Assembly: GCA_905221605.1 (NCBI GenBank)
Contig: CAJNDS010002209.1
Location: forward strand, 341,164 to 405,163
Source of the DNA: Symbiodinium natans
Lineage: Eukaryota > Sar > Dinophyceae > Suessiales > Symbiodiniaceae
Direction: 5' to 3'
Length of the DNA stretch: 64,000 nucleotides
Made by a program: the position numbers and the translations under genes. Below the pieces are notes generated by a model. The model did no database searches. It was not told the origin of the DNA and was given only the letters and a program-made list of their open reading frames with translations. Within the stretch, counting starts at the first letter, position 1; each line of letters opens with the position of its first letter. Shown here piece by piece: positions 392-63,704 of this stretch.

Positions 392-574
392 CTAGAGTCC
401 CGTGAGCCCGGACCCTTAGCCTGAACCCAAACCCCCTCCTCGAAACCCAACCCCGCACCAAGAGAACAACAAACCCAAAACGCTAGACCCTAAACCCTAA
501 ACCCTAAACCCTAACCCTAAACCCTAAACCCTAAACCCTAAACCCTAAACCCTAAACCCTAAACCCTAAACCCC

Positions 575-653
575 ACAGAAATAAAACTCAAGCTGCAGCA
601 GCGGCCTGAAAGTCGAGCACCAGCTCCTGAAAGCCGAATTCAATTCATCCATT
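575..653 (-). CDS. Coding island between telomeric arrays (possible exon)
   Basis: This GC-rich island has CCCTAAA copies on its left and TTTAGGG on its right. The minus strand is open from an ATG (MDELNSAFRSWCSTF...) to a GT donor just before the array. Other frames are also open, so strand and frame are uncertain. No family is recognised. Confidence 0.25.
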
Positions 654-901
654 CACTGGTATACAGGTTAGGTTTTAGGGTTTAGGGTTTAGGGTTTAGG
701 GTTGAGGGTTTAGGGTTTAGGGACTCCACACGCACAAGCTCCGCATGCTCAGGGTTTGGGGCTTGGAGCTTTGGGGCTTTCGGTTCAGGGCTCGTGCCCT
801 AAACCCTAAACCCTATAAACCCCAAACCCTAAACCCTAAACCCCCAAACCCTAAACCCTAAATCCTAAACCCCAAACCCTAAACCCTAAACCCTAAGCAT
901 C

Positions 902-985
902 CTGCAGCTGCTTCCCGATGCTGCGGATGTCGATGCGCACCGCGGCCTTGGGCTGAAAACCCGGATGCAAGGCGTCAGCGACTCT
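902..985 (-). CDS. Probable exon, unknown protein
   Basis: On the minus strand the acceptor CCCCGCAG precedes 28 codons with strongly G/C third positions (RVADALHPGFQPKAAVRIDI, then RSIGKQLQ). A GA or GC donor follows inside GGATGCTTAG. Telomeric arrays flank both sides. It lies downstream of the propeller gene and could be a later exon of it, but the intervening join was not found. Confidence 0.45.
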
Positions 986-1509
986 CTGCGGGGTAGGGTT
1001 TAGGGTTTGGGGTTTCGGGTTTAGGGTTTAGGGTTTAGGGTTTGGGGTTTAGGGTTTGGGGTTTAGGGTTTAGGGTTTGGGGTTTGGGGTTTGGGGTTGT
1101 GGGTTGTGGGGTTTGGGGTTTCCGGTCTGGGGAGTCAGAGTATACCCTGCAGCCTAAACCCAGCGGAGCCTTTGTTGGGGAGAGAGGGGCTTCAGCGCAT
1201 ATGGGTAAAAAAGATAGGGTTTCGGGTATAGGGTTTAGGGCTTAGGGATACAAGAGCCGAACGTTGCGGTTTGCTTTTTCTTGGATTCCAAGCTAGGCTC
1301 ATGGGTTCTGCCTGCTCAGCACAGGTTAAACCGGCGAAGCCGAGCGAGCAAGTCTGCGAACAGGTGCGCTGTCTCAGTCTCAGCAGGCTTCCTCAAACAC
1401 CTCATAGGATGAAAACAAAGTCTGAGCATAACCTGGCGTGCGTTTCTGGTGTGTTTGTGCTTCGCCGGGTAGGTCTTGTCATATGCAAAACACTACAGCA
1501 TGCTGTACA

Positions 1510-1617
1510 AGGGGGTTTCCGAAATTGGGGTACCTTGTCGGGGGTCTCGATTATAAGGGAGACCTACTATTTGGGGATATATATATATATAAGGGATCCC
1601 CTATCTTCGTAAACCCC
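1510..1617. repeat. MITE-like element, family 1 (ggtttccgaaa...taccc ends)
   Basis: The ends resemble GGTTTCCGAAAATAGGGGTA and its complement. A ttctatttggggtat-like core is shared with copies at 20279-20365, 30345-30452, 32178-32284, 33350-33445, 49513-49632, 55110-55312 and 57150-57228. It is non-coding. Confidence 0.5.
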
Positions 1618-2317
1618 CATATACCAAACGCGGCATGCTCTACACTCCAGATCGAAAGCTGTGCTGCGCTGGCCGATTCTGCCCCCCCTACTCTCTGGCC
1701 TCCGAGCCGAGAGACGCCACTTGTTGCTTAAAACAACACCCCGAACCCTAAACCCTAAACTTCCCACACCCTAAACTTCCCAAACCCTACACTTCCCAAA
1801 CCCTACACTTCCCAAACCCTAAACTTCCCAAACCCTGAGACTCGGAATCGATCGGGCCGCAACCCGAAACTGGACCGTTTGGCTCCACGGCAACAAGCTC
1901 CTCTTCTTGGCCGTTCTTTGTGGCCAAGGAGGGGAGCGGCCAATTTTTGGCCATGAGAACTCCCTACTTTAAGTCTCATGGCTACGGTGCACCTTAAGTA
2001 GACAGTTGCTCTAGAATTACTGAGACTGTTTGAACTTAGTCTGCCTGACCACTTCCAAGTACCATGTGGCCTACGAGGACACAACCTAGCCCCTAGCCCG
2101 TCTGATCTTAAGGACAGGAACATGAAACTGGTAAACCCCGAAACCTTAAACCGCTTCCAGGTTGGTCCTCAAGGCTTTGGTGTCTTAAGCGTTCAGGGTT
2201 CGAAGACAGCGGCGCCTGCAGCGCCTGCTGCGAGTCCAGCTGAGTCGGCCGTGCCCAAGGCGACACCACCATGGGCACCTCCCAGAGAAGACGTGGGATC
2301 GGCCGGTGGATCTCAAC

Positions 2318-3630
2318 CTGGTCATGTTGCAGCTGAAGATTGCGCCGCCAAAAGTTTCGTTGTGGCGCCACTCTGGTACATCCGTCAACACTACGGCTCT
2401 CTCTGAGATTCCCACCATGGACGGGCGGGCTAGCGCGTTGCTGCCCTTGGCCAAGTTGCTGCCGTACCTGTCAACGGTCTGAACCAAGCTCCATGCGCCA
2501 GCCGCAGCGACCTCGAACATCTGAATTCGGTTGCCAGACTGAGTGGGGTAGTTCACCACAACCCGGCCAGCGCTGGAAATTGCGATCTTCGCAATGGCCC
2601 CGAACACAACAGTGTCATTCAACGAGGCCCTGAAGACTTCGGGCCACAGCTGGCTCTGGCGCTTGTAGATGAGCAGCTGACGAAAGGTGCTGAGATCAGA
2701 CCAAAGTGCGGTCGCGTAGTCCCCATCCACAGCGACGTCAATCATGTAGAACATACCCGGGGGCGCTGACACGTTGGCGACGCTCCCCCAGAAATCGCCT
2801 TGCCATTCATATACAAGCAAGGCCAAGTCAAGGGCCGCGCTGCTGCCACTGACAACCAGCGTCTTGCCATCGTGCGCGACGGGCGTATATGAGTGACAGC
2901 ACACTCTGGACAGAGGGAACTCGATCCGCGCTGCCGGAACTTCGATCCACTTGGTGCCATCAAGGCGGAAGGTGTGGTGATCGTTCCCACGGCCCAACGG
3001 TTGCGAAAGCAACAGGAGCCTCCCACTCAATGCCATTCTAGTTCCGAATGATCCGAAGTTGGGGGGAGGATCGTCAATGTGGACCACCTGCTTGTTGACA
3101 AATCTCCATGACTTCCCGGCAGACATGAAGGTGTAGATGATCACTGGCACCTGATTGGGCGCCTGAGATTTATTCGCTCTGAGGGCCTCTACAGTCACCG
3201 CAAGCCCTCTGCTCAGCGCGGAGAAGGAATGCCAGGTAGATGGACTGGGGGTTTTGATGTTCTGGGCTACGAGAAGTTCTGTCAAATTGGCAGCGGTTTG
3301 CCACCCTGTAGCTGATCGCCTGTAGATCAAAGCGTCATTGATGTGCGAAGAAGCGACACCTTGTTGATTGTCATACCATCCGGCCAGCCACCACGACATG
3401 AGGACAAACTCGCCTGCTGCGCCTGCAGATGCCCTGAGCGATATTTGTGCGGAAACCCCGGTCGCCTCATGTGAGGTCGCTGATGTGAGCGCTTGAGACG
3501 CGTGAGGTGCCTCCACACTTTGTCCAGTCCACTCCGAGGCCGACGTACATGGCCTCAAGGCACGTCGCCGCCAGGGCCTCTGCCGGCGATCCTTGCCTAG
3601 GTTGGCCTTCAAGCCCTCTGAGCAAGATTC
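2318..3630 (-). CDS. Secreted or surface beta-propeller-like protein, main exon
   Basis: This is the longest non-transposon reading frame: 437 codons after the acceptor ATATTCTAG, ending in a good donor (ACCAG/GTTGAG) with two bases left over. The protein is built of repeating blades, each with a hydrophobic strand, a DG or SG turn and an aromatic strand, for example VAHDGKTLVVSGSS, then LLVYEWQGDFWGSV, and MFYMIDVAVDGDYATALW, then RIQMFEVAAAGAWSLVQTV. This resembles FG-GAP/integrin-alpha-type propellers found in dinoflagellate surface proteins, although no calcium-binding DxDxDG loop is evident. It joins in phase to the signal-peptide exon at 3724-3792. Exons after the donor are not identified. 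A start inside this exon was rejected because the frame continues back to the acceptor. Confidence 0.75.
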
Positions 3631-3723
3631 CTAGAATATGATTTGTTAAGGTTTAGGGTTTAGGGTTTATTCTAAGCCCAAGAGGGGAAGAATAGAATAT
3701 GCCAAGGGCACCTAGTTGCTGAC

Positions 3724-3792
3724 TTGCAAGAAGCAGCTCTCTGGTTCCTTCGCCGCAGCCGACAGCCCAACGAAAGCCACGAGCAGCCACAT
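3724..3792 (-). CDS. Signal-peptide exon of the propeller gene
   Basis: The 23 codons from ATG read MWLLVAFVGLSAAAK, then EPESCFLQ: a hydrophobic core ending in small residues, i.e. a classic secretion signal. The next in-frame codons run to a stop within nine bases, but a GT donor (CAA/GTCAGC) lies at the end. Phase 0 joins it to ESCSEGLK at the start of the main exon. The 93-base intron contains two to three CCCTAAA copies and short direct repeats (tagaatatg at 3632 and 3692). Confidence 0.7.
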
Positions 3793-3997
3793 GGCTGGCA
3801 GGTCACACCGCAACTTGGGCCGTTGCCAAGAAATGCGGCGGTGTATCCTTCTGCTTAAGGGGCTGGGTAGACTCCAATATACTTGACTGCACTTAGGAGG
3901 GTAGCTATAAATGAAGTTTTTAGCTGCCTTACTAGGAAAGCCAAAAAACCCCAAAAGGCGAAGGATCTAAAGTTACAGTAAAGCACCACAAAGATAT

Positions 3998-4127
3998 GAG
4001 GCAGCATCCCAGGATCCCCCTTGAAGGGGCTGGGTTTAGGGTTTAGGGTTTAGGGTTTAGGGTTTAGGGTTTAGGGTTTAGGGTTTAGGGTTTCGGGTTT
4101 AGGGTTTACTGGAGGCAGCATCCCAGG
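3998..4127. repeat. Telomeric array bounded by a 16-bp direct repeat
   Basis: The sequence gaggcagcatcccagg occurs at 3998-4013 and again at 4112-4127. Between the two copies lie about ten TTTAGGG units and a short lead. The arrangement resembles an insertion with target-site duplication. Confidence 0.65.
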
Positions 4128-4152
4128 CTCCCGGCCCCCAGGACGCTGTGGC
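4110..4152 (-). CDS. Possible small exon
   Basis: The acceptor CCATCAG and the donor A/GTAAAC bracket 43 bases, open in two frames (ATASWGPGAWDAAS or PQRPGGREPGMLPP). One copy of the 16-bp direct repeat lies inside it. No family is recognised. Confidence 0.3.
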
Positions 4153-4184
4153 CTGATGGAGCGGGCTTCGGCCCCTAAGCCCTG

Positions 4185-4383
4185 AATATAGGGGCCTGAA
4201 TAACTTGGGTTTAGGGTTTAGGGTTTAGGGTTTAGGGTTTAGGGTTTAGGGTTTAGGGTTTAGGGTTTAGGGTTCAGGGTTTGGGGGTTTAGGATTAGAA
4301 TAAGGTTTTGGGGGGGTTATTAAAGTATAATTCTAAAGGGACCCTAAGGGAATACTTTGCCTATTTCGTCCGACCCCTGTATT
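4185..4383. mobile_element. MITE-like element, family 4, with an internal telomeric array
   Basis: It starts aataTAGGGGcctgaata and ends ccgacccctgtatt, an imperfect terminal inverted repeat. About nine TTTAGGG copies lie just inside the left end. The copy at 48479-48663 has the same ends and also carries an array. A copy at 33791-33896 has the ends but no array. Confidence 0.55.
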
Positions 4384-4433
4384 CTACCCTTGAGGAGATT
4401 GGGCAGCGTACATAGGGGGTCATCTGCTTGCAC

Positions 4434-4469
4434 CTCCCGCAGCCGTTAATGGCTGGGCCTTTGTGCGAC
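4434..4469 (-). CDS. Probable 36-base exon
   Basis: The acceptor CTCTGTACAG and donor GGGAG/GTGCAAG bracket one base, eleven codons (SHKGPAINGCG) and two bases. Both splice sites are strong. No family is recognised. Confidence 0.4.
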
Positions 4470-5261
4470 CTGTACAGAGCTCACCCTAAACCCTAAACCC
4501 TAAACTCTACACCCTAAACCCCAAACCCTAAACCCTAAACCCTTGAGGGATAGTTTGATGGAACCTCGAACACCTCCTGCGCGGGTTGAGGGGTCGCAGT
4601 TTCTCTTGTTCAGAACAGTTCTTGGCGAAAATAGCTGCTCCCACATAAGCCCTCGTTACATCCTTCCATATCCTTTAGGAGTGACGTTGCATCCTGTACC
4701 CCACCTGGGAACTCCCTTTCTGAAACTCTCATGAATCTTGGGTACTGGATCTGTGAGTCCCGAACTGTACCCTAAACGCAGACACGCCCTGATCTTGGTG
4801 GATTTCACCTTAAGCAGTCAAGGTTGCTAGACCCTAAATCCGAATAAGTCCTCAAAACGGGTCATCTGGGGAAAAGGTCGTTCAGGTTCTAAGTAGGGGC
4901 AGTGGGCTTCTCGCGAACCCCATCCAAGCCCATGCAAGCGCGATACTGAAACCACCCTACTAGTGATAGAGAGCCCTGAAACCATGAAAGCCTAAACCCC
5001 CCCTACCCCCCTCCGAAAGCCCGAAACTCTCAAGCAATCCGTGCACAAACTCGCAATCGAAGTTTTAGCGCAACCCCATCCAGCACCCAATGCCGAAAGC
5101 ACGCTCCCAAAGCACGTAAACCCCTAGGTACCCCTGAACACTCACACCCTATAGAGCCCAAACCCTCACCCCCCCGCCCCCACCCAAACTCTAAACCCTA
5201 TTCCCCCCCCCCCCCCCCAACAAAAAAAAAAGAGAAAAAACATCGCCCTCTCCCCCTTGAC

Positions 5262-5314
5262 CCGGCCGAAGCAGGGCAGCAGCAACTGCAGCTTGTCAGC
5301 CGCCAGTGATAGGC
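5262..5314 (-). CDS. Probable exon, SPRY-end-like
   Basis: After the acceptor CTCCCAAG come two bases and 17 codons (LSLAADKLQLLLPCFGR), then the donor CGG/GTCAAG. G/C dominates third positions. The LLLPCFG segment weakly resembles the LLPFVDFG and LYPFIDLLG strands of the SPRY exons further right. Confidence 0.5.
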
Positions 5315-8812: not shown

Positions 8813-8860
8813 CTCGGCCCAGACATCGACCATGGTGGACCAGTCTTCCGTTGACGCGGC
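8813..8860 (-). CDS. Probable exon
   Basis: The acceptor CTCGGTAG and donor GAG/GTGCAG bracket exactly 16 codons (AASTEDWSTMVDVWAE), 13 of them ending in G or C. The layout matches the other islands: CCCTAAA on the left, TTTAGGG on the right. Confidence 0.6.
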
Positions 8861-12485: not shown

Positions 12486-12578
12486 CGGCTCCTGGCCGCA
12501 GCGCAGCGGGGAGTGGGACGGCGCGCCGCCCCGCAGGGAGCGCGGCGTGCAGCCGACCCAAAAGCTCGGCACTTTGTC
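12486..12578 (-). CDS. Probable exon, 31 codons
   Basis: The acceptor AAACCCCAG and donor CCG/GTTCAG bracket 31 phase-0 codons (DKVPSFWVGCTPRSLRGGAP, then SHSPLRCGQEP), with nearly all third positions G or C. Telomeric arrays abut both edges, so the acceptor AG lies inside the array itself. The family is unknown. Confidence 0.55.
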
Positions 12579-13261
12579 CTGGGGTTTAGGGTTTAGGGTT
12601 TATAGGGTTTAGGGTTTAGGGGTTGGGATGTTCAACCCCCTTATACTAACAGTCCTTAATAGAGACTAAAGTACCGCTCTGCTTGGGTGGGTGGTTCCGG
12701 GCTCTGGGGATTTCCTAGGGCATCAGTGGCTTGCAGGGTTTTGGGGTCGAGTGTTTAGGGGTTCAGGGTTCGGGGTTCGGGGCTGAGGGTTCCGGGCTGC
12801 CGATCCGCAAGTTTGGGCGTTTTGGGCTTCGTTTGCAAACCCATACAGATGCAACAAGCAATACAACCCGAAATCCTGCGTGCCACTGCGCCTGGGCCCC
12901 TAAACCCTAAACCCCTTAGGAGTTTCCCAACAACGCAAAGCCTGGCTTGGGATGCGGGTTTAGAGGGTTGAGGGTTGAGTAGGTTTAAGGGTGTAGTAGG
13001 CTTAAGGTTTAATCCCTTCCCCCTTCTACTAAAGACCACCCTAATAATGAAAACACTAATTTAAAACCCATTTTGAATTAGGGGGGGGGGGGGGTCAGGC
13101 CTCCAATAAACCCCTCAACCAATAAAACCCTCAGAGGGTTTAGGGTTTGGGGTCTAGGGTTAAGGGTTTAGGGCTTAGGGTTAATTCTGACATTTCGATA
13201 AGAACCTCCCCCTAATGCTCAAAACACATTTCGAATCTTTAAATGGGGGGGGGGGGCCGTT

Positions 13262-13371
13262 TAATAATAGGGGGAAGGGATTAGGTTATACTGACAGTCC
13301 TTCATAGGGATTGTCTTAGGGGGTACTAAAATGCCTATTAAGGACTGTTAGTATAAGGAGGAAATCCCAAG
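13262..13371. repeat. MITE-like element, family 3
   Basis: An inverted pair, actgacagtccttcataggg and cctattaaggactgttagta, surrounds a short core. This is one of the best-preserved copies of the family. Confidence 0.55.
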
Positions 13372-14452: not shown

Positions 14453-14527
14453 GCCACGTGCCTCGGCGCCCGCGGCAGCTCGAAGCGGGGTCTCGGCATC
14501 CAGGACGCGCGCTGCGTCTAGAGCCGC
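14453..14527 (-). CDS. Probable exon, 25 codons
   Basis: The acceptor CTCTCATGAG and donor GGC/GTTGGAGG bracket 25 phase-0 codons (AALDAARVLDAETPLRAAAG, then AEARG), an amphipathic alanine-rich helix. Third positions are mostly G/C. Confidence 0.55.
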
Positions 14528-17758: not shown

Positions 17759-18169
17759 CTGAAAACCGAGCCTGGGTTTGGACGGGAACGAACGTCTACA
17801 AGCGTACGGACATCCCCGAACTTCCAGGGAGTTTTAGGGTGTAGGGTCTTAGGGTTTAGGGTTTAGCGTTTAGGGTTTACGACAGTTATAGGTTGCTAAT
17901 CCACTTAAGGACACCCCTAACCCCTAAACCCTAAACCCTGAACCCGAAACCCTAAACCCTGAACCCTAATCAAGTAGGTCATTGAAAGTATAGAAACGAA
18001 CTCAGCACCCTAACTAAAAGGCACATGCCTTCAGGAAACTATTGGCATCCCTCTGGGTATAAGGAGAACAGTCGAAGCCCATTGGTTTAGGGCTTTGTAC
18101 AGGATATATACAGATATCCTGTACAAACCCCTACACAAACCCTGTAAACGGAGCCCGATATAAACGCTT

Positions 18170-18660
18170 TTCTACATGCATAAACATACATATACATATA
18201 TACATATATACATATATACAATATATACATATATACAAATATACAAATATAGATATATACAAATATACAAATATAGGTATATACAAATATACAAATATAC
18301 AAATATACAAAAATACAAATATACAAATATACAAATATACAAATATAGATATATACATATATACATATATACATATATACATATATACATATATACATAG
18401 ATACATGGATACATAGATACATAGATACATAGATACATAGATACATAGATACATAGATACATAGATACATAGATACATATATGCAGATATGCATAAGTAC
18501 ATACATACATATATACATATTTACATATATACATGTGTATATATGTATATGCATACACAATATATGTACATCACATACATCTACATAGATATACATATAT
18601 ATATATATGTGTGTATAGATAGATACACCTATATGTATATATATATATATAGAGAGAGAG
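18170..18660. repeat. Long ATAC/ATAG/AT microsatellite complex
   Basis: About 490 bases of tacatata, tacaaata and tacataga units end in (ta)n and (ag)n. Open frames of up to 169 codons (MYICIYVYM type) exist on both strands solely because the repeat lacks stops. Confidence 0.97.
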
Positions 18661-19336
18661 ACACATGCTCAGAAGCATCCCATCTCACACGCGCCCCTTG
18701 CGAACCTCTTCAAAAAAGCACCTTCCCTACTTCTGCCATATATATATATATATGCATGAAAGATAAAGAAAACCCAAACATGATGGACCCTGTAAGCCGT
18801 GCATTAAGCCCGACAGCCGCCAAAACCTCAACAGGCCTGTAGACGAGCCCCTACCCTGCTTAGCTGCGAAGCTCACAAGAGGGTTTAGGGTTTAGGGTTT
18901 AGGGTGAATAAGCCCCAAAAAGTGCACACTTTGATCTCTTTAGGGAGTTATCGTATCCCAAAAAGTGTAAAGTGTGCTCGCTCAGCTACTAAGCCTATAA
19001 CTATAACCTTCTGAATCCTGCACAGCAACTTCTGTACGCTCTGTAACAATCCCAGAAGACCTAAAAGCACCTGTCATCTGAATGTCAACCGGGCCCCTAT
19101 ACTCCCCTTCGAACCTTGATAAAAACAACATGTTTAATATCCTCTTGCGTTTTATATAAGCAAAAAATACTTCCCAAGGGTGCACTGGGGGCATCCTGAG
19201 GCGGAAGAGTGGCCAGGTCGGCGCCGGCTGATTCGTCATCTTGGGCTAGGCGCCTTAGATCTGGGGCAAACCAGGAGACCCTAAACCCTAAACCCTAAAC
19301 CCTAAACCCTAAACATCCTTTAAACCCTATGGTTGC

Positions 19337-20532: not shown

Positions 20533-20608
20533 TTTCGGGTTTAGGGTTCCCTAAACCCTAAACCCTAAACCCTAAACCCTAAACCCTAAACCCTAAACCC
20601 TAAACCTT
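20533..20608 (+). repeat. Head-to-head telomeric junction with CCCTAAA array
   Basis: The sequence tttagggttccctaaa (junction near 20548) switches from G-strand to C-strand orientation and continues as about eight CCCTAAA copies. It looks like a fused or folded-back telomeric end, although only one copy stands on the left. Confidence 0.7.
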
Positions 20609-21793: not shown

Positions 21794-22176
21794 CTGTGTA
21801 AGAGGATCGGCTGTTGGGTGGGTGTACGGCTTTGAGGGTTTCGGGGTTTAGGGTTTTTAGGGGGTTTTAAGGTCTTCTAGGGTTTTTAGGGGTTTAGGGC
21901 GCTCTAGGGCTTTAAACCTTTAGGGCTTTAGGGTTTCGGGTTTAGGGGATTTAGGGTTTCGGGCTTAGGCTTCTAGGGCGTAGGGTCCAGGGTTCCAGGG
22001 GTTTAGGGAGGGCAACCCGGTTCGCCTGCTGCCAAGGTGGACTTCAGGAGCCTTTCTCGCAACCCTAAGCAGCAAAACACTAAACCCTAAACCCTGAACC
22101 ATAAACCCTAAACCCTAAACCCCAAGTGGGAGACCCTAAGGCTCAAACGGCTCTGACGGGGGTTTCGGTGACTGTG

Positions 22177-22542
22177 ATGAAGGAGGTCCAAAAACCACGC
22201 TATCCGGGCCTCAGCATGTTCGTTTTCCCGCGGGCAAAGTTTGCTCAAGGCACCAAGACCATCCTCAAGGTCTCCTGCGAGCACGCTTGGAAATGTCAGA
22301 AGTGCCAGGCCGTGGTCAGGTCGACCCCGTTCGTTAAGCGCCACTCCAAGGGGCCTTGCCCGGAGACGCGGCCGGCCTTTGCACAGCGGCAGATTCGACG
22401 ACTTCGTGACATTCGACAGTGGTTGCAGACGCAGAAGAAGTACACGGACGAGAAGGCTCGGCTGCTCCAGGCCACCGACGCAGCCATCAGTGCATGCGGG
22501 CCATCGACAAGCCCCTCTTTGCAACCTTCACCTTCTTTCTGA
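22177..22542 (+). CDS. LINE ORF1, zinc-finger protein
   Basis: The frame opens upstream, but the first ATG is at 22177, giving about 121 residues. Near residues 38-60 it has a C-x2-C-x12-H-x4-C finger (CQKCQAVV...KRHSKGPC), preceded by a further Cys. A basic helix follows (QIRRLRDIRQWLQTQKK). This fits the nucleic-acid-binding ORF1 or gag-like role of LINEs. It overlaps ORF2 by 124 bases in a frame one base ahead, so ORF2 could be made by -1 frameshifting or by re-initiation. No classic slippery heptamer is obvious. Confidence 0.6.
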   Translation: MKEVQKPRYPGLSMFVFPRAKFAQGTKTILKVSCEHAWKCQKCQAVVRSTPFVKRHSKGPCPETRPAFAQRQIRRLRDIRQWLQTQKKYTDEKARLLQATDAAISACGPSTSPSLQPSPSF

Positions 22543-37994: not shown

Positions 37995-38011
37995 CTGGGA
38001 GACGCGTCCTC

Positions 38012-41422: not shown

Positions 41423-41478
41423 CCGCAGGCGAAGCGCTCCCACGCGGTCATTGGCTTTAAGCGAGGCCGGGCTCCAGC
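41423..41478 (-). CDS. Giant gene: SPRY domain 2, 'ND.VG' strand exon
   Basis: The acceptor CCCTGTCAG is followed by two bases and WSPASLKANDRVGALRLR, then the donor CGG/GTGTAG. The segment W...LKANDRVGALRL matches the SPRY W...x-G-D-x-V-G-x-L core and KGDRAGLLVL at 30044. Confidence 0.65.
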
Positions 41479-42713: not shown

Positions 42714-42787
42714 AAGCCAGGTTGCTGACGGTGGTCTGCTCATCCTCGTTGAAGTTCACCGAGCGGTAGAAGCCATCGTAGCCTGAG
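42714..42787 (-). CDS. Giant gene: SPRY domain 2, 'GYDG' exon
   Basis: The acceptor CCCACGCAG is followed by one base and 24 codons (SGYDGFYRSVNFNEDEQTTV, then SNLA) plus one base before a GC donor. GYDG aligns with GYNG at 31514-31570, and both are followed by acidic tails. Confidence 0.6.
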
Positions 42788-43039: not shown

Positions 43040-43097
43040 GAGAAGCCGGCTGTCCAGGACTCAGGCACCGTATCCGACACCTCCTGGATTCCCTCTC
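43040..43097 (-). CDS. Giant gene: SPRY domain 2, 'PESWTAGF' exon
   Basis: The acceptor AGTCGCCAG is followed by two bases, EGIQEVSDTVPESWTAGF and two bases before a GA donor. DTVPESWTAGF aligns with ETLRESYSLGY in domain 3. The plus strand is open too (NEQKGQTSRRSQEVEK). Confidence 0.55.
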
Positions 43098-43869: not shown

Positions 43870-43930
43870 CTGTCTCCAACTCCTCTGGCGGGACGAGGGT
43901 GAATCCCAGGGCCAAGCCATCCGGGGTGCC
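43870..43930 (-). CDS. Giant gene: SPRY domain 2, 'LGFT' exon
   Basis: The acceptor GCACGTCAG opens GTPDGLALGFTLVPPEELET plus one base, with GA donor G/GACATT. LGFT..P aligns with LGVA..P at 32671. GC3 is very high. Confidence 0.65.
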
Positions 43931-44895: not shown

Positions 44896-44919
44896 CTCCC
44901 GCACTCGATCGATGCGCAC
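44896..44919 (-). CDS. Giant gene: SPRY domain 2, 24-base microexon
   Basis: The acceptor GCCCCTCTCCAG and GC donor GAG/GCCCGT bracket VRIDRVRE in phase 0. It joins the exon ending YFE to give Y-F-E-V-R-I-D, matching Y-F-E-V-T-V-D in domain 3. Confidence 0.55.
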
Positions 44920-45849: not shown

Positions 45850-45905
45850 CTCGAAGTAGCGTCCCCCAGGGCCAGCCGTGAGGGGCCGGGCGCCGATAGC
45901 GACGC
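45850..45905 (-). CDS. Giant gene: SPRY domain 2, 'YFE' exon
   Basis: The acceptor GGCTCCTCCCCAG is followed by two bases and 18 codons (VAIGARPLTAGPGGRYFE), then the GC donor GAG/GCCGAG. It is paralogous to 34820-34881 and 58924-58982, with identical phases. Confidence 0.75.
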
Positions 45906-46253: not shown

Positions 46254-46338
46254 GCCACATCTCGGCCGAGAAGCCATACAGCTGCTGGCCGCTCTCGTCC
46301 TTGTGACGAATCGACTGGCCATCCTTGGACAGCTGGAC
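46254..46338 (-). CDS. Giant gene: exon before SPRY domain 2
   Basis: The acceptor CGTGTGCCAG opens VQLSKDGQSIRHKDESGQQL, then YGFSAEMW, plus one base before C/GTTTGG. The leftover C completes a codon with the next exon. VQLSKDG resembles VKLSDGK at 58170-58214. Confidence 0.6.
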
Positions 46339-50008: not shown

Positions 50009-50068
50009 CAAAACAAAAACAGGCTCAGGCAGCGACGGCGCGGCTGGAGCGGGTTTGGGCTCAGGGGC
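50009..50068 (-). CDS. Giant gene: Pro/Ala linker exon
   Basis: The acceptor AAGCCCACAG and donor TTG/GTTTAGGG bracket APEPKPAPAAPSLPEPVFVL, phase 0 at both ends. The donor GT is the first GT of the telomeric array. It continues the proline-rich linker of 51643-51716. Confidence 0.55.
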
Positions 50069-51642
50069 CTGTGGGCTTTAGGGCTTGAAGGGGTTTAGGA
50101 TTTAGGGTTTAGGGGTTAAGTTTAGGGTTTAGGGTTTAGGGTTTAGGATTTAGGGTTTAGGGTTTAGGGTGTGTACGGCTTTAGGGCTTTTGTCGGGTTA
50201 TAGGGTTTTGGGATATAAGGCTTTAGCCTTTGTTTAATGGGTTTTGGGGTTTTCTTTTTAGGGCTCGGGGGCTGAAAGGTTTTAAGTTTATAGTATTTAG
50301 GGCTTTAGGGTTTTTGTTGCAGGGTTTCGTGCTTTGTGGGTTGAGGGTTGAGGGTGGGCTTTCCTTGTTGCAGCTTTGATTTTTTTTTCCGGCTGTCAGG
50401 TGTTTAAGGGCTTCCAGAGCATTCGGGCGTTTGGGACTTTTGGGGTTTTAAGGTTTCGAGGGTCTTGGGGCTTTATGGTTCTGAGGTTTTAAGCTTTTTG
50501 GGGCTTTAGGGTTTGGGGATTTCAAGGGGCTTCAGGGCTTTGGTGTGATTTGGGAATACATTTTAGGGTCTGTGGGCTTAGGGCCTAGGGTTTTAGGGCT
50601 TCAAGGTAGAGGGTGCGAGCGCTTCATAACACCCTAAACCCAAACCCCCTGAACTCTCACCTCCTCCCCCCACCCCCCGGCCCAAAAAAAAAAAAAAAAA
50701 AAAAAACAGCAAAAGCACTCACCGTAGCACTGATAGAAAGAAGAGTGAAGCCCCTAGGCCTCCAAGCTCGAAATCCGGGCCTAGCACCAAAATAAGAATG
50801 CCTTAAACCCTAAACCTCTCAACTCGAAAACCCAGCCCAACTAGACCTTGAATCCAACAACGCTAAGAACCCTAAACCCTTAAATCCTGAATGCAGAAAA
50901 CCCCAAAAGCCCTACAAAAAGCCCTACAAAAAGCCCTACAAAAAGCCCTAGAAAGTCCACCCACACACCCAGACAACCCTACAACACCAATGGAACCCTA
51001 ACGCCAAACCCCAATATAGCCTTCAAAGCGCATAAGCCCTGACTTATAACCCCCCCCCACAAAAATAAAATCAATATAAAACCTACAAACCAAGAACACC
51101 GCAAACCCGAATGAGCCCTAAGCCGCAAACCCTAACCCCCCAGAAAACCTGATGTGAAGTGAGATGGGTCCGGGTACCCGAAGACAAGGTAAGATATTTG
51201 CAGTACTTTGAGAGCGCGCTCGGAAGATCATGTCTGATCACGATGGTGCAACTCTTCCCATCCCTGCCAACAGAACACGGCTGGGCTTCCTGGGGAGGGA
51301 AGCAGATCGTATGATGGCTGCAGCCCTTAAGGCGCCTTGCCAGTTGCCGGGGTGTGCGTCGCACTCTGCTTGGGAGCGTTGCGGGCGCAATGACAGGGAC
51401 ATCAGGTCATTCACACCCGAAACCCTAAAGGCCCTAAACCCCTGCAAATCCCCCAAAAAACCCCACACCCTACCACCCTAAACCCTCAAACCCTAACCCA
51501 AAAACCCTAATCCCTCAAACCCTAGACCCCAAAAACCCCTACACCCTAACAACCTAACGCCCTAACACCCTAAACAGCCCTAAACCCTAAACCCTAAACC
51601 CTGAACCCTAAACCCGAATCAATAAGCCCACTGTGGTCTGGC

Positions 51643-51716
51643 CTTGACTTCGGGTGGTGGCTTTGGAGGCCTCCGCTTGATGGGCGGAGGCACCGCGTCG
51701 GCCTTGATGGAGACCT
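51643..51716 (-). CDS. Giant gene: strand plus Pro-rich linker exon
   Basis: The acceptor AACCCCAG is followed by two bases and 24 codons (VSIKADAVPPPIKRRPPKPP, then PEVK), then the GC donor AAG/GCCAGA. Read through, the frame meets TGA ten codons later (ARPQWAY), so this might instead be a terminal exon that splits the giant gene in two. Confidence 0.6.
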
Positions 51717-53283
51717 CTGGGGTTTAGGGTTTAGGGTTTAGGGTTTAGGGTTTAGGGTTTGGGGCTTAGGGCTCAGGGTTTAGGGTTTAGGGTTTAGGGC
51801 TTGGGGTTTAGGGTTTAGGGTTTAGGGTTTAGGGTTTAGGGCTTGGGGTTTAGGGTTTAGGGGTTTGGGGTTTAGGGTTTGGAGCTTAGGGTTTAGGGTT
51901 TAGGGCTTGGTGGCACCACCTGAGCCGCCCTGAACCACGAAACCCGGACAAAAAATCAAAAACAAAACGGCAGGGCCGAGTAAACTGGGTCCAGGGCCAG
52001 ATCGAGACTTGAGTGTAGGGCTTGTTCATTTTGCAAAGGTTTAGGGTTTAGGGGTTTAGGGGTTCAGGGTTTGGGATGTAGGGTTTAGGGTTTAGGGTTT
52101 AGGGTTTCGGGATGTTTCCCCCTGGTTCTTAGTAGGGAATGAGGGAATTAGGGCGCTATGAATACCCTTTAAGGGATTATATAGGGTACCTCATTCCCTG
52201 ATTCCCTACTGAGAGCCAGCCAGTTTTGCAAAGGTTTGGGTTTGGGTTTGTGGGGTTTGGGGTTTAGGGTTTGGGGGCTTAAGATGGGTCCAGGTGGGGA
52301 CTTTAAGCTTAGGGCTGCATCTTTCTTTCGGGCCTTGGGCTAAGGGACCCATGAGCTACAGAAGGAACCTCAGTTACACTTAATCCTGTCCGAGATGCAG
52401 CGAGTGTATTTCCCATCAGCTCCACAAGTGGAAAAAGCTCCGCTCCCTTGGGCGCCTGGAAGGAACCCCAGGCGGAGGCTCTCAAAGGTTTCGGGTTTAG
52501 GGCTTAGGGCTCAGGGTTTAGGGTTGAGGCTATCGGGTATGAAAGCGCAGGGATCTAAGGTTGACCTGTGAGCCTATTATCCAATAGGCTTATAAGCTGC
52601 ATCTAGATCGGTTTAGGGTTCAGGGTTTAGGGTATCGGGCTTGGGGTAGAGGGTTTAGGGTTTAGGGACATGTATGGGGTTTAGGCTTGCTCACTGACCT
52701 TCCTAGAACACCCCGGGAGCCCCACACCTCGCTGACCTAATCCCCAACGCCACCCAAAATCCCCCTTCTGCTTGAACAAGGCCCTATGTTTAGCAACCCT
52801 AAAAACGAGTTAGCCGTTTGTAAACCCTAAACCCCTACATTCCTGGCTTCTTCGAAGCCCCGAACTCCAAAGCCTAAGCACCGCAATCTGCCTGCAAGGC
52901 CTCTGACTCAAGGACGCCGTTGACAATCCTTTGCCGCTGGAGTTGTCTCGTGACGCTAAACCCGATAATCCCTATAATCCCGAAACCCCACAAAAGAACC
53001 CAAAGCCGCCCAAAGCCGCCTAAGCCCTCAGCACTATAAATACTGGCCTTTGGGGAGTGCGTTGCCGGGCTGCGGGGATTAGCAACAACCGAACCTGAAA
53101 TGCTGACCTAGAGAGCCTACTAAACCCAAAAGTGAGGAACCTTACTCGGAGGTTCAGGGTACATATACCCCCAAGTATAACTGTACTTACAAGCCCCTAT
53201 ATAAGTCCCCTAAGTCCTTCAAGTAGGCTAGAACTAGACTTCAATTGGGGTGCGAAGTACCCATGAACCTCCAGGCAAGCTGC

Positions 53284-53712: not shown

Positions 53713-53748
53713 GCAGCTGCAGCACACCCTCCTCCGTGCAAAGGATTC
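53713..53748 (-). CDS. Giant gene: possible SPRY domain 1 strand exon
   Basis: The acceptor CTCTGAAG is followed by two bases, ILCTEEGVLQL and one base before the GC donor C/GCCCCG. The next exon would continue as Q-VSIKADAV. The position fits the SPRY D-G-x-L strand. The plus strand is open too (LQHTLLRAKDSFRE). Confidence 0.4.
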
Positions 53749-54510: not shown

Positions 54511-54599
54511 GTTCCAGACAGGCAAGAGTCCCACGGAGTCACCGATCTCTAGCTTTGCAGGGTTCCAGTCGATCGGCAGGAGCTCTTCCCAGTTGTACC
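54511..54599 (-). CDS. Giant gene: SPRY domain 1, 'IGDSVGLL' exon
   Basis: The acceptor GCGTCCTCAG is followed by two bases and 29 codons (YNWEELLPIDWNPAKLEIGD, then SVGLLPVWN). The segment W...LEIGDSVGLL is a textbook SPRY core strand. TGA follows directly, so the 3' edge is unclear: a missed donor or a terminal exon. Confidence 0.65.
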
Positions 54600-55690: not shown

Positions 55691-55759
55691 CTTCAGCTGG
55701 GGCATCCCACGGTGGGCCATGCCATCGAAGCCGTAGCAGAGGGACTTGGGAACCTCGCT

Positions 55760-56340
55760 AGGAGCCCAGAACCTTTTTTTCTGGGGGCCTTGATTGTAAG
55801 AACAGGATTTTGGGGGGGATGATGGTAGTATGAACATAAAGGGACCCTTAAAGGCTTGCCCGGGTTTAAAGGGTATATATAAGGGAACCTAAAGCCCCCC
55901 CCAAAAAAATGGGAATAAGGGCCGAAACCCTGAAACCCTCTGGATACTGTAATTCCCACAGTTGCCCTACTGATAGCCCGAAACTCATCTAGGAGCCCAG
56001 AAACTTATTTTTTCTGGGGGCCTTAATTGTAAGAACAGGATTTTGGGGGGGATGATGGTAGTATGAACATAAAGGGACCCTTAAAGGCTTGCCCGGGTTT
56101 AAAGGGGCTTATAAGGGAACCTAAAGCCCCCAAAAAAAATGGGAATAAGGGCCGAAACCTGAAAACCCTCTGGATACGGTCATTCCCACAGTTGCCCTAC
56201 TGATAGCCCGAAACTCATCTAGGAGCCCAGAACCTTATTTTTTCTGGGGGCCTTAATTGTAAGAACAGGATTTTGGGGGGGGGGGGGGGGATTCTGATAG
56301 TATGAACATAAAGGGACCCTTAAAGGGAATACTACTAGTA
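55760..56340. repeat. 230-bp tandem repeat, about 2.5 copies
   Basis: Units start aggagcccagaa at 55760, 55991 and 56221, with few differences apart from G-run length. One partial relative is at 31745-31868. The last unit ends in the cgacccctag border of family 4. It is non-coding. Confidence 0.95.
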
Positions 56341-57496
56341 ATTCTTCCGACCCCTAGAGTACCTTGGCTTTCGGCCGCCTAAGAAGCTTGGAGCTGGGTA
56401 TGACCTGCCAAAAAAAAACAGGTAGGCGTCGGCGCCTTAGAAGGTAAAAGGACTCTCCTTCCTAGTTGCCCAATACCCTGGCTTTAAAAAAGTTTATAAG
56501 CTTCTCTTTTGGCAGGGGGTTTAGTAGACCCAAAAAGTTTAAAGTTCACCGAAGCCTGTTGGACTCCTAAGTCTTTCAGGGTGTTTGAGCCCAAAAACCA
56601 TACCGGATGAGGTCGTTGCGGTACTTTCAGCCCGATGGTGCCTTGTGATCTTGTTGTGTTTGTTGATGGTGGGGTCTACTTTTGGAGGAATTTCAGGCGT
56701 GTGGAAAGAATACTTGGTCAGTTCTCCAAGTCATGGGTCCTTTTTGGGAAACCTAGATAACAGGGACCGCCTCATAATGCTCATAATGGGAACACAAAAG
56801 GAACCATATTCCCGAGAAGTGACCACTTCTAAGCGAGATGGTCCTGAGAGAAGAAATATGAAATGTGCACCCCAAGTCCCGAAGTCCCCAGTACTAAACT
56901 GAGGTCTCCCCAACGAAACCTCTAGGGTTTAGAGTTTAGGGGTTAGGGTTTCGGGTTGAGGGCCACACCCTGAAGGGCTTCGAGTGGCTCAGAACCCAGG
57001 CATTGGAAGCGTATTTTCAGCGACGTGCCCGCAGCCACCCTACGCCGAAACCCTAAAACCCTAAACTGAACCTTGCAGCGTTCAGCCAAACTCTAGGCCG
57101 TCCGTCCCAAACCACTTCAACCTGCCGAAACATTGCATATGGCAATGGGTATTTTCTTTTATACCCCACATAGAAGCGAATCCCCTGTAAAGGGACCCCC
57201 ACAAAAATGGGTACCCCTATTTTCGGAAACCCCCCGTATCCCGAAAGCCCAATCTTCTGCGCCCTCTAGGCCCTAAGGCCCCCCCAAACCCTTCCACCAC
57301 AAACTCCTACAACAACCCCCGAAACCCTACTTGGAGGTTCAATGGGGTACTTAGAAGTATGCACTAGAAGTAGGGTAGCTGTGGTTATAACCTTGCTTGG
57401 GGTACTCAGAACCCTAAAACACTGAACCCCAAACCCTAAACCCTTAACCCTAAACCCTAAACATTAAACCCCAACCCTAAACCCTAAACCCTAAAC

Positions 57497-57550
57497 CCCG
57501 GCCTCCTCACTGGTGGCATAAGGCTCAGCCGGCAAGGCTTTTGGAAGTTC
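57497..57550 (-). CDS. Giant gene: 18-codon exon
   Basis: The acceptor CCAGACCCCAG and donor GGG/GTTTAGGG bracket ELPKALPAEPYATSEEAG, phase 0 at both ends. Arrays abut it on both sides. Confidence 0.5.
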
Positions 57551-57768
57551 CTGGGGTCTGGTCCAAGAGGTCGAGGGTTTAGGGTTTAGGGTTTAGGGTT
57601 TAGGGTTTAGGGTTTAGGGTTTAGGGTTTAGGGTTTAGGGTTTAGGGCCCAACCGACTTTCTAGTGGCTTGCGGGGTCCTGTCCGGGTTTCTAAGGCCTA
57701 GGAGTAACCTGGGAATCAAAAGGGTGCCCTTCTTGGTTCTTCAAGGGGTCTTGTAAGGGAACCTAAAA

Positions 57769-57917
57769 CCCTAAAAACAGGAACAAGGGTTTAGGGTTTA
57801 GGGTTTAGGGTTTAGGGTTTAGGGTTTAGGGTTTAGGGTTTAGGGTTTAGGGTTTAGGGTTTAGGGTTCCCTAAACCCTAAACCCTAAACCCTAAACCCT
57901 AAAAACAGGAACAAGGG
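57769..57917. repeat. Head-to-head telomeric array bounded by a 21-bp direct repeat
   Basis: The repeat ending aaaaacaggaacaaggg occurs at 57769-57789 and 57897-57917. Between them about eleven TTTAGGG copies meet CCCTAAA copies through tttagggttccctaaa near 57868. The structure is a perfect foldback. Confidence 0.9.
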
Positions 57918-58561: not shown

Positions 58562-58636
58562 GCCCAGGGCGCCGCTGCAACTCCAATTGTCAAACCATCT
58601 GCGAATGCCGAGGTCACATCCTCGACGCCTCAGCTG
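58562..58636 (-). CDS. Giant gene: possible 25-codon exon
   Basis: The acceptor CCTGGCCTAG opens QLRRRGCDLGIRRWFDNWSC, then SGALG, with a GA donor. The plus strand is equally open (GAAATPIVKPSANAEV) behind a good acceptor, so strand is undecided. Confidence 0.35.
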
Positions 58637-58923
58637 CTAGGCCAGGCGGGTTCAGGGCTCAGGGTTCAGGGTTTAGGGTTGTGGACGATAGGGCTTAGAT
58701 TCCTTGAGCCCTACAAGCCCAAGCCCTAAACCCTAAATAGCCTAAGCCCCAATATCAGACCCAAGCCCCTTTCTTGGCTCATAGGCACTTAGAAGTAGGG
58801 CTATAAGTACCCGAAGTTAGGACATATATATATATATATATAGCTAACCATAGTCATACTCTTTACCCTACTTACAAGTACCCAAACGAACCTTCAAGCA
58901 ACTCATCAAGCCAAAAGGCAAAC

Positions 58924-58982
58924 TTCGAAGTATTTGGCCCCGCCGTTAGCACGGAGAGGTCCATCGCCGAAGAGCACCGCGC
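58924..58982 (-). CDS. Giant gene: SPRY domain 1, 'YFE' exon
   Basis: The acceptor CCTCTTGGGAG is followed by two bases and AVLFGDGPLRANGGAKYFE, then the donor GAA/GTTTGC. It is paralogous to 34820-34881 and 45850-45905, here with a GT donor. The first two bases complete Gly with the base left by 61736-61812. Confidence 0.75.
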
Positions 58983-60167
58983 CTCCCAAGAGGGGGTTTA
59001 GGGCTTACATGTTTAGGGTTTAGGGTTTAGGGTTTAGGGCTTAGGGTTTAGGGCTTACATGTTTAGGGTTCAGGGCCTAGTTTTAGGTTTCGTTGTAGGG
59101 TTTAGGATTGCAGTGGGGCAATAGAACATACATGTGGGCGAAGTGAACAAGTTTTGTGCTTGCCTGGGGAATTATGCATCACTTTGCGTACAGGTCGAAA
59201 CCCGAAAAACTAAACTCTAAACCTAGACGAACTTTAGGGCTTAGGGCATAGGGCATAGGGCTTAGGGTGTAGGGTTTGGGGTTTAGTGTCTACAGGTGAT
59301 GAACCTGCTTTGGACCTTCTTTGATTTAGCAAAAAGACTGTAAGGAATGTCTCGGAAGTCTCTGCAAAAAAGGCCAGAAAACTCGCCACGCCCTTCTTTG
59401 GCGCGTTCCTGAGATCAAAGTGCGTAATGAAGTGAAAGTTCGCAAGGTCTTGCATTGGAAACCTGCTGGCCATCTACGAAAGCGTCCAAGACAGCACCTA
59501 AAAGTAGACGATTCGCGCAACGTTTGTGCCGTGGATCTCTGTCAACACAGCAACTAAACATTGAGTCCTAAACCCTAAACCCCAAGCCCTGCAACGAAGT
59601 CAGCCGTATTGTGCCCTGAGCCCGAGTGCGCCCCAATCCCCAAACCCTGAACCCCATGGCGCCTAAGCCGGCACCTTTTGGATGAACTCCTGCACTTGAA
59701 GGGTAGGGTTTAGGGTCTAGGGGCTAGGGTCCAGGGTTCAGGGGTATTCCTCAGTCGGGACTTGTACGTACATTCCGCCTCTCCCCGCTCCCCATATGGT
59801 GGGATTCCAAAATAGCGAGTATCTTTCTTGTTTTTGTTGGGGGGGGGGGGGGGGGGTTCTCTATAGTAAGGATTACATGATTACAGCATTTTCGGGTAAG
59901 TTGGGGTTGCCCCAGCCGACAACCACCGTTAAGCACACACACACACACACGGACTCCAAGCAGGGTTCTAAGGGCCGTATAGGTCTGCTAGGGATTTTAT
60001 GATCTTAGGGGGAATTTGAAGGGCTTTGTCGGGGTTTATGGGTTATACGAGGTCTACGTAAAAACAGGCTCGGGGCTTTGCTTACCATGTCACGATTTGT
60101 TTTGTGCTCGAGGGTGTTACCACACTTTAAGATACAGCAGGCATGCGAGCTCACAGTAGGGGCATCA

Positions 60168-61735: not shown

Positions 61736-61812
61736 CTGTGCGCCGCGCCACCAGGCCCTTGAGGCTCACGATGGGGGTCAGGAGAGCGCTGCTGAAGCCG
61801 CTGAACCTCTCT
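61736..61812 (-). CDS. Giant gene: 25-codon exon
   Basis: The acceptor CACCCGCTGCAG is followed by one base, ERFSGFSSALLTPIVSLKGL, VARRT and one base before the GC donor G/GCCCTT. Nearly all third positions are G or C. LLTPIVSLKG resembles a SPRY end strand. The exon that should precede it was not found. Confidence 0.6.
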
Positions 61813-61919: not shown

Positions 61920-62407
61920 GGGGGAGTGGAGTTAGGCTTCGGGATCTTAGGGCCTATGAGGCTACAGCACAAGAAGCCCAAGAAACTGGCAGGTTCCAGC
62001 CCCCAATTCTTCGGGCAGAGCCTCCCAACAAATCTGCGGTGAGAGTCAGGGTTCCCGAGGCAGCCTGAAAGCCAAAAAGCATTTTTTTAGGGTTTAGGGT
62101 TTAGGGTTTAGGGTTTAGGGTTTAGGGTTTGTAGGTCTTGCCTCGCATCTGGAGTTGAGGGTATCGTTCTAAACGGGCTTGGGCTTCGTGTTTTGTGCTT
62201 TGATACGCGGAGGGGGGGTTCAAGGAGCTTAAGGCTGCACCCTGCAGCCCAAATGTACTTCCATGACCTTCACCCTAAACATCCCTCAGCCCTAAGCCTC
62301 ATGGGCCACGTGGGTGGCTGATCCATTAGGGTTTAGGGTTTAGGGTTTAGGGTCTAGGGTTTAGGGTTTCGGGTTTAGGGTTTAGGGTTTAGGGTTTCGG
62401 GTCTTGC

Positions 62408-62466
62408 CTCCGGTCGGGTGGCTCCGCGTGCAAGTCCAGAGAAATCCTCAGCCAGCGAAGCATTAG
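62408..62466 (-). CDS. Giant gene: 19-codon exon
   Basis: The acceptor GGGGGGTGCAG is followed by two bases and NASLAEDFSGLARGATRPE, then the GC donor GAG/GCAAGACC. The same GAG/GCAAGACC string occurs at 62140-62151. Confidence 0.55.
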
Positions 62467-62489
62467 CTGCACCCCCCCCCCAAACCCTC

Positions 62490-62608
62490 GTTTAGGGTTT
62501 AGGGTTTAGGGTTTAGGGTTTAGGGTTCAGAGTTTAGGGTTTAGGGTTTAGGGTTTAGGGTTTAGGGTTTAGGGTTTAGGGTTTAGGGTTTAGGGTTTAG
62601 GGTTTGGG
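62490..62608 (+). repeat. TTTAGGG array, about 16 copies
   Basis: This is the right wall of the exon at 62408-62466; one TTCAGAG variant is present. Confidence 0.97.
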
Positions 62609-62989
62609 GGGACCCAAACCCTTACTAAACCATGAACGTGTCTTTAAGACCAGAAGGTTCTCGAGTTAAGTACCAAACCACGAACGTGGGTTAACCGGTG
62701 AGCCCACTAAAACCATTTGGTTCTAAGAGATAACCCGGATGTGAAAAAGGCTTCTGGAATTAACCCAGCCTTACTAAGGGTGCTCATCGCCTCTTCCCGC
62801 AAACCTAAGACTCCTAAACCCTCAAGCCCTCAATCCCAAATACCCTAAACCGTGACCCTAAACCCTAAACCCCAAACCCTACAACCCTAAGACCCTAAAA
62901 CCCTAAACCCCAAACCCCAAACCCTAAACCCTAAACCCTAGGCTGGAGGGTGGGAGTGGGAAGCAGGTGGCTGACGGGAGGCGCCGTGC

Positions 62990-63043
62990 CGCGCTGCCCG
63001 AAGTCCACGAAGGGAAGCAGCGCTTGACTGCTGGGAAGGTTGC
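62990..63043 (-). CDS. Giant gene: last strand of the rightmost SPRY domain
   Basis: The acceptor AACCCCAG is followed by two bases and NLPSSQALLPFVDFGQR, then a GC donor; the frame stays open to 62945, so the 3' edge is uncertain. Joined in phase to 63705-63775, NG...NLP...LLPFVDFG gives the canonical SPRY ending. Confidence 0.75.
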
Positions 63044-63704
63044 CTGGGGTTTAGGGTTTAGGGTTTAGGGTTTAGGGTTTAGGGTTTAGGGTTTAGGGTT
63101 TAGGGTTTAGGGTGAGGGCTTCGGATTTAGGGTTTAGGGTTGGCGTTTGGGGTTTGGGTTCAGGATTTAGGGTTTGGGGTTTGGGTTCAGGATTTCGGGT
63201 TCAGGGTTGTGAGGTTTGTAAGGCCTCGGGGCTTTCAAGACGGAAGTTATAGGGTATACCATGCTTGAGTTTTAGGCTTTAGGGTTAGGTTTGCAGACTT
63301 CGGGCTTGGGTTTGCAGACATGAACCGCGCCTGCCCAAAACACAACCCATACAAAACCCCAAGATCTGAACACCCCAACCCTTAGGCTTAAAATAACCCA
63401 AAATCCCAACCCCTACAGGCCTGATGCCTCCAACCTTAAAGCCTAACACCCTAAGCCCTCTCACCCCGAAGCCCTACACCTTATAGAGATCCTAAGCCCT
63501 CAGCCCTCAGCCCGAAAAGCGGAAACACGAACCCTGTAAACAAACCGCTAGAAGTAAACCCTGTAAGCCGTGAAGCCCTTAACAGAGAAGCTCTAGATCC
63601 CAAGCCCTAGACCCCCAAACCCTCTTCGCCCTAAACCCTAAACCCTAAACCCTAAACGCCCCAAACCCCTTTTTAGCCCCCTGAAGAGCCCCTGTAAGCC
63701 CGGC

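Follow-up and report, generated by a model that had tools for sequence, protein, structure and literature searches.

Why should the exon-like islands of a dinoflagellate gene be caged by telomeric arrays that point in opposite directions? The question is raised by a 64,000-nucleotide stretch of nuclear DNA (hereafter, the window) from Symbiodinium natans, a free-living dinoflagellate related to the algae of corals. The window occupies positions 341,164-405,163 of a 582,341-bp scaffold, an internal location, and carries arrays throughout. In what follows, F denotes TTTAGGG and R denotes CCCTAAA, read on the plus strand unless the sense strand is specified. An earlier note on this DNA described islands in the order R-island-F and proposed that the opposed arrays at the two ends of an intron pair in the transcript. 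The observation is real and general: near exons, arrays mostly point as the splice sites dictate. As an explanation, we tentatively favour ordinary spliceosomal introns filled with interstitial telomeric arrays, the orientation of which may well be filtered locally by splicing.

That the islands are exons is supported by cross-species homology for at least four of the nine intervals that the earlier note listed. Exon-like pieces of the minus strand were joined and used as the query in a homology search. Each of the seven proteins returned (E up to 1.7e-49) has a precomputed PF07177 (Neuralized, NHR) assignment; Effrenium voratum and Durusdinium trenchii are among the source species. The gene, predicted to consist of tandem Neuralized repeats, covers 28003-63775 of the window (minus strand) and the 20 kb upstream; its homology to Neuralized proteins rests on the seven-protein search together with spliced alignments. 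In direct Pfam scans of the joined exons, early chains matched only the open reading frame (ORF) of a long interspersed nuclear element (LINE; see below) and none of four exon pieces matched, and a PDB sequence search with the joined exons gave no matches. IQ motifs are also carried by two relatives.

Exons were defined by phase-aware spliced alignment of the proteins P0027 and P0021, which yielded 38 segments in the window, 35 of them kept, and 26 further exons in the next 20 kb upstream, giving 61. Segments at the ends of the window alignment (63909-63958, 27455-27479 and 27253-27281) and in the upstream alignment (65943-65951 and 83953-83984) were dropped as weak. The median exon measures 55 bp and the median intron 771 bp (range, 219 to 5289). 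Arrays overlap none of the 61 exons and are present, at least one apiece, in 58 of the 60 introns. Two other readings of the islands were ruled out: tandem mini-chromosomes, as the exons join into one gene, and antisense genes, as the homology falls on the minus strand.

Around these homology-defined exons, array orientation is non-random. Of 49 acceptor sides with an array no farther than 150 bp away, 43 have CCCTAAA (sense strand) as the closest one (p = 3e-8); of 48 such donor sides, 36 have TTTAGGG (p = 4e-4). The 26 exons that lie beyond the window, and that nobody had chosen with the pattern in mind, gave 16/19 on the acceptor side (p = 0.002) and 13/19 on the donor side (p = 0.08). The preference peaks close to splice sites, at distances of up to about 150-200 nt. 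In particular, sense arrays within 150 nt of acceptors number 56 R and 9 F, and those at 150-300 nt number 17 R and 18 F; within 200 nt of donors there are 60 F and 21 R. Among arrays that are 150 nt or more away from either splice site, 62 are F and 76 R, and the two intron halves do not differ significantly in this respect (p = 0.09). Mid-intron regions carry both orientations, and one intron holds 31 arrays. The expectation that introns start with UUUAGGG and end with CCCUAAA holds in part: among the 51 introns with at least two arrays, the first and last arrays (sense) are F and R in 30, R and R in 12, F and F in 7, and R and F in 2, so that 21 are arranged otherwise. Nor are the arrays terminal: between splice site and array lie 3 to several hundred nt of intron.

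On a different contig, a gene with ankyrin repeats (PF12796, E = 1.1e-111) carries CCCTAAA at 10 of 12 acceptor sides. The count covers the 14 predicted exons over the ankyrin repeats and excludes FNIP exons (array-free nearby) and predicted exons lacking homology; these exons were predicted by a gene finder that had learned from the Neuralized gene and has a slight preference for C-rich acceptors.

The R-island-F cage itself is present above chance in the window and in 17 other 10-kb stretches scattered over the S. natans genome. For gaps of 41-160 bp in the window, 40 of 62 R-to-F and 27 of 61 F-to-R transitions were found. When window islands of 50-260 bp were compared at a coding-score threshold of 10, R..F islands had a GC content of 0.581 and exceeded the threshold in 22/50 cases, compared with 0.528 and 3/32 for F..R, 0.536 and 7/39 for F..F, and 0.510 and 3/28 for R..R islands. 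R..F islands of 60-140 bp number 37 in the window versus 23.8 +- 3.5 with orientations shuffled (p = 0.0002); in the 17 other stretches there are 69 versus 44.6 +- 4.9 expected, a count reached in 0 of 3000 shuffles, and coding scores exceed 10 in 40% of R..F islands (n = 94) and in 17-20% of the other three classes. The spacing matters: with two exact units required on each side, the window contains 5 RF and 10 FR arrangements at 70-100 bp between the arrays, and 60 RF and 12 FR at 130-160 bp. Genome-wide, 46,443 R..F arrangements have gaps of 70-100 bp (the R..F order alone was counted). A search for the cage pattern in collections of viral contigs and genome contigs gave no matches.

The figure of about 25 islands given in the earlier note was too low, as more such islands exist. 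Of the nine intervals that it singled out, four overlap homology exons (27998-28075, 37936-37994, 57497-57550 and 62990-63043). Another, 50009-50068, lies within the proline-rich linker of the gene, outside the reach of the spliced alignment. The remaining four (902-985, 8813-8860, 12486-12578 and 14453-14527) lie beyond the gene and overlap minus-strand exons known from prediction only.

The repeat itself is the dinoflagellate telomere unit, TTTAGGG (reported in PMC11453091 and PMC11508785), and arrays of it at internal positions are interstitial telomeric sequences. The window contains 660 TTTAGGG and 440 CCCTAAA heptamers. In the whole assembly (759,417,921 bases, 2543 contigs), the 28-mer (TTTAGGG)4 occurs 853,942 times on the plus and 852,709 times on the minus strand, whereas a reversed control 28-mer occurs only 21 and 10 times, respectively. 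Arrays make up 19.7% of bases in the window and 15.0% in the 17 scattered stretches. The load is uneven: 12 of the 17 stretches hold 21-50 arrays each, a recurrence that ruled out a subtelomeric origin of the pattern, and the other five hold 0-9. One array-poor stretch contains a kinesin motor gene with many predicted exons, and its predicted introns are nearly array-free. Array load thus differs strongly between genes.

The splice sites of the 61 exons are those of ordinary dinoflagellate introns. Acceptors read AG/G (the slash marks the splice position) in 59 of 61 cases, and donors are GC (42), GA (10) and GT (9), in agreement with the published S. natans table, which gives AGG acceptors at 97.1% and GC, GT and GA donors at 58, 23.6 and 18.4% (PMC10666404). 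That the introns form a new class finds no support in the form in which the idea was put, these splice sites being already published for the species. Across the 60 introns, including those upstream of the window, an extended donor consensus was also seen, with C at +5 (55%), T at +6 (48%) and G at +8 (68%), as in GCGCCTTGG; at donors, the aligner itself took into account no more than the first bases of the intron and the last two of the exon.

How might splicing filter the arrays? The heptamer TTTAGGG offers TTTAG/GG, which fits the AG/G acceptor of S. natans, once per unit, and CCCTAAA contains no AG. Sense TTTAGGG arrays upstream of an acceptor would thus compete with the true acceptor and would be removed by selection, whereas CCCTAAA in the same place would present no AG and would supply C-rich sequence. 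Downstream of the donor, G-triplets may be tolerated or may even help use of the 5' splice site, a step proposed with less assurance. Both constraints point outward from the exon and would therefore produce the CCCTAAA-exon-TTTAGGG cage for a gene on either strand without any pairing. In line with removal of decoys, AGG outside telomere-like 7-mers occupies 8 of 1057 positions 2-50 nt before acceptors versus 79 of 4147 at 150-300 nt (p = 0.007); the decoy argument explains the acceptor side, the stronger of the two and the one that was seen repeatedly. Outside masked arrays, moreover, GGG and CCC number 57 and 21 at 6-50 nt after donors, and 14 and 49 at 2-50 nt before acceptors.

Several observations weigh against filtering by splicing. 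The decoy-acceptor argument leaves the donor side unexplained, and the donor sides of the ankyrin gene show no bias (TTTAGGG at only 6/12). Before acceptors, CCC is the commoner of the two triplets at 150-300 nt as well, and only one donor and three acceptor ends are free of telomere-like 7-mers, so few that decayed arrays may be the source of the GGG/CCC asymmetry. In 48 predicted introns of array-poor stretches there is little asymmetry (GGG/CCC 51/39 at the donor, 48/60 at the acceptor and 42/66 in the middle) and no clear loss of AGG (52, 40 and 50, respectively). Six of 49 acceptor sides carry TTTAGGG, in one case ending 5 nt from the acceptor (exon 32683-32748), so decoys are not always fatal. 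The effect also appears broader than strictly local, because the inner arrays of the window, those with other arrays on either side in their intron, lean by half (32 F and 22 R in the 5' half, 16 F and 39 R in the 3' half; p = 0.002). The AG/G count is not independent evidence, because both the aligner and the gene finder favoured AG/G and upstream pyrimidines; the donor types are likewise partly built in, the aligner having allowed only GC, GA or GT. Finally, nearly all verified exons belong to one gene.

Among the alternatives, a positive splicing code is the one that survives best, though we consider it unlikely. According to this model, exons are defined by factors that bind UUUAGGG downstream of donors, in the form of G-triplets or RNA G-quadruplexes, and CCCUAAA upstream of acceptors. 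The bias on both sides of exons in the 61-exon gene and the GGG and CCC asymmetry outside masked arrays are consistent with such a code, and G-quadruplex motifs are reported to show an approximately 3-fold enrichment around the splice junctions of human and mouse (PMC9065059). However, the ankyrin gene lacks the donor bias, the other strand occupies about a quarter of donor flanks, and the kinesin gene manages its many predicted exons with nearly no arrays, which indicates that arrays are dispensable for splicing. A genome-wide co-option of telomeric DNA as a strand-polar exon-definition signal, perhaps via telomere-repeat RNA-binding proteins, is a suggestion that we regard with somewhat greater reserve.

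The arrangement could instead be mutational in origin: breaks within introns, healed by telomerase on both sides and rejoined, would leave TTTAGGG to the left of the break and CCCTAAA to its right, whichever strand is read, and the exons between such scars would look caged. This model accounts for the strand-symmetric F-then-R order and for islands that look capped by telomeres; arrays meet head to head at 20537-20560 and 57857-57880, and insertion of interstitial telomeric sequences during double-strand-break repair has been described in primates and rodents (PMC7215372). Nevertheless, at gaps of no more than 40 bp F-to-R exceeds R-to-F by only 6 to 3 in the window and 10 to 6 in the 17 stretches, an insufficient excess, and one break per intron would order all of its arrays, yet the deep arrays are divided into 62 F and 76 R. 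Healing of breaks thus seems a rather improbable source of the cage.

The pairing proposed in the earlier note, in which sense UUUAGGG near the 5' end of an intron and CCCUAAA near its 3' end would loop out the intron and join the splice sites, is also improbable, and we give it little credence. Counting over all 60 introns, F comes first and R last in 30, long perfect stems are possible, and hairpins joining exon borders were proposed for the introners of Amoebophrya (PMC7789003). Pairing, however, requires the arrays near the two ends to be opposed and is indifferent to which end has which strand, so that it predicts no preferred end, yet the F-first, R-last arrangement outnumbers the reverse by 30 to 2. 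Moreover, the orientations of the two end arrays are independent (odds ratio 0.7, p = 1), and introns with an F array by the donor are not significantly more likely to have an R array by the acceptor (odds ratio 1.5, p = 0.56); the link in array presence across exons is not significant either (odds ratio 2.6, p = 0.15). The ends of an intron are no more complementary to each other than to the ends of other introns at 20, 40, 100 or 200 nt; for 100-nt ends, the longest exact complement is 10.7 within introns versus 11.2 +- 0.8 between them. In minimum-energy folds of 45 introns of 200-1000 nt, the median end-to-end distance is 12, compared with 14 after flipping (p = 0.65) and 12 after shuffling (p = 0.78), although such mean-field predictions for naked RNA test pairing only weakly. 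Of the 11 ankyrin-gene exons that have arrays on both sides, 5 lie between two R arrays. Pairing is possible in many introns, and nothing shows that it is needed; a role in bringing splice sites together finds no support in end independence, complementarity or folds.

That the introns are introners, mobile elements with terminal inverted repeats made of TTTAGGG arrays, is highly unlikely. Some introners of Symbiodinium microadriaticum have terminal inverted repeats and 4-bp target-site duplications (PMC9860276), inverted repeats are described as common at intron ends of Prorocentrum cordatum (PMC10666404), and same-register boundary repeats of at least four bases occur in 35% of the 60 introns versus 25% of mismatched pairs, a comparison made without a statistical test. 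The introners known from Amoebophrya, P. cordatum and S. microadriaticum resemble the S. natans introns in having inverted repeats near both intron ends; the S. natans arrays differ in lying 3 to several hundred nt inside the intron and in their variable number and order, with up to 31 arrays in introns of 219 to 5289 nt, and the introns are not mutual copies. In particular, when telomere-like 7-mers were masked and the 60 introns of the gene were searched for near-identical partners, only four matches in three pairs were found (33-38 bp), and no shared family emerged. An origin of the introns from telomeric terminal repeats, as the earlier note suggested, accordingly lacks support in the form proposed. 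The possibility of an artefact of assembly or exon choice is close to negligible, for although simple repeats assemble poorly and the window was singled out for its cage pattern, the pattern recurs in the 17 other stretches and around the 26 exons beyond the window, and exons were defined by homology, independently of the arrays.

Cages around individual exons can now be located. All window exons lie on the minus strand, and fractions below give residues in the protein alignment. Exon 62983-63043 (17/20 identical), which overlaps the listed interval 62990-63043, has sense R 3 nt upstream and F 42 nt downstream; on the plus strand, these are the TTTAGGG array 63047-63141 on the acceptor side and the CCCTAAA array 62842-62940 on the donor side. 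Exon 57503-57550 (14/16), overlapping 57497-57550, has sense R 23 nt upstream (TTTAGGG, 57574-57647, plus strand) and F 4 nt downstream (CCCTAAA, 57410-57498, plus strand). Exon 37953-38008 (12/19), overlapping 37936-37994, has sense R 3 nt upstream (TTTAGGG, 38012-38156, plus strand) and F 52 nt downstream (CCCTAAA, 37796-37900, plus strand). Exon 30051-30105 (12/19) is flanked by plus-strand TTTAGGG at 30135-30253 on its acceptor side and CCCTAAA at 29961-30041 on its donor side. The same arrangement is seen at exon 28013-28086 (15/25), which overlaps 27998-28075 (sense R 11 nt upstream, F 23 nt downstream), at 31514-31570 (11/19; R 5 nt upstream, F 4 nt downstream) and at 63705-63775 (21/24 identical to P0027; R 104 nt from the acceptor, F 47 nt from the donor). 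Wrong-way (F) arrays lie upstream of exons 42726-42782 (14/19; 30 nt), 40324-40361 (10/12; 15 nt) and 32683-32748 (16/22; 5 nt).

The other exons, in the direction of transcription, are 62408-62446 (10/13), 61736-61806 (17/24), 59663-59689 (9/9), 58920-58982 (17/21), 58573-58628 (17/19), 55711-55753 (14/14), 54531-54599 (21/23), 53715-53748 (9/11), 52892-52928 (12/13), 52399-52455 (16/19) and 51628-51714 (19/28), followed by 46275-46338 (15/21), 45850-45905 (11/19), 44896-44919 (7/8), 43870-43930 (16/19), 43047-43097 (13/17), 41438-41478 (9/14), 38914-38996 (25/28), 37492-37554 (13/21), 36754-36802 (11/16), 34820-34881 (20/21) and 33519-33560 (9/14). The list closes with 30694-30725, a weak exon with an AG/A acceptor (5/10), 29385-29426 (8/14) and 28987-29026 (11/13).

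Beyond the Neuralized gene, and on the strand opposite to it, the LINE at 22410-26522 (plus strand) combines endonuclease (Exo_endo_phos) and reverse transcriptase (RVT_1) domains in one frame (Pfam). Its ORF is the only long intact one of the window, its product matches an annotated S. natans protein at 1345 of 1348 aligned residues, and arrays are absent from 22119 to 27380; no relatives of the LINE protein were confirmed in viral contigs. For a 481-aa ORF at 2185-3630 (minus strand), the search found only the window's own protein and no relative. Rfam and tRNA scans of the window gave no matches. Repeats of other kinds are also present: a non-telomeric repeat at 55793-56326 has matches at 31751-31856, with shared stretches of up to approximately 200 bp; a dispersed shared sequence of 24-27 bp occurs on both strands (12636-12662, 13335-13358 and 30871-30895); and an ATATAC-type repeat with an 8-bp period occupies 18087-18668.

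Among known systems, interstitial telomeric sequences elsewhere likewise consist of internal (TTTAGGG)n arrays with exact and degenerate units; S. natans differs in their abundance (15.0% of bases in the 17 stretches), in their concentration in introns and in a strand set by the splice site. Polarella glacialis, in which (TTG)n is reported to make up 18.5-19.1% of the assemblies (PMC7245778), is alike in that one simple repeat claims a large share of the genome; in S. natans the unit is telomeric, and its orientation around exons was tested. Compared with other dinoflagellate spliceosomal introns, which share the GC, GA or GT donors and AG/G acceptors, those of S. natans differ only in being filled with arrays. 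In the open-access literature, the searches turned up no account of telomeric arrays spread through introns or of how such arrays are oriented, though one could still be in print elsewhere, and the S. natans genome paper does not use the string 'telomer' anywhere in its main text. Iso-Seq and RNA-seq data for the species have been published (PMC8045281).

In S. natans, then, telomere repeats reach a double-digit share of the sampled sequence, are mostly intronic, and have a strand that is predictable from the nearest splice site. This carries a warning: inverted repeats at intron ends, which elsewhere have been taken as evidence of introners, can stem from independent constraints on the two ends. 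The S. natans genome is also a large natural experiment on the tolerance of the spliceosome. Because the repeat is one fixed heptamer, the effects of decoys, G-triplets, quadruplexes and pairing are separable over thousands of introns with mapped transcripts.

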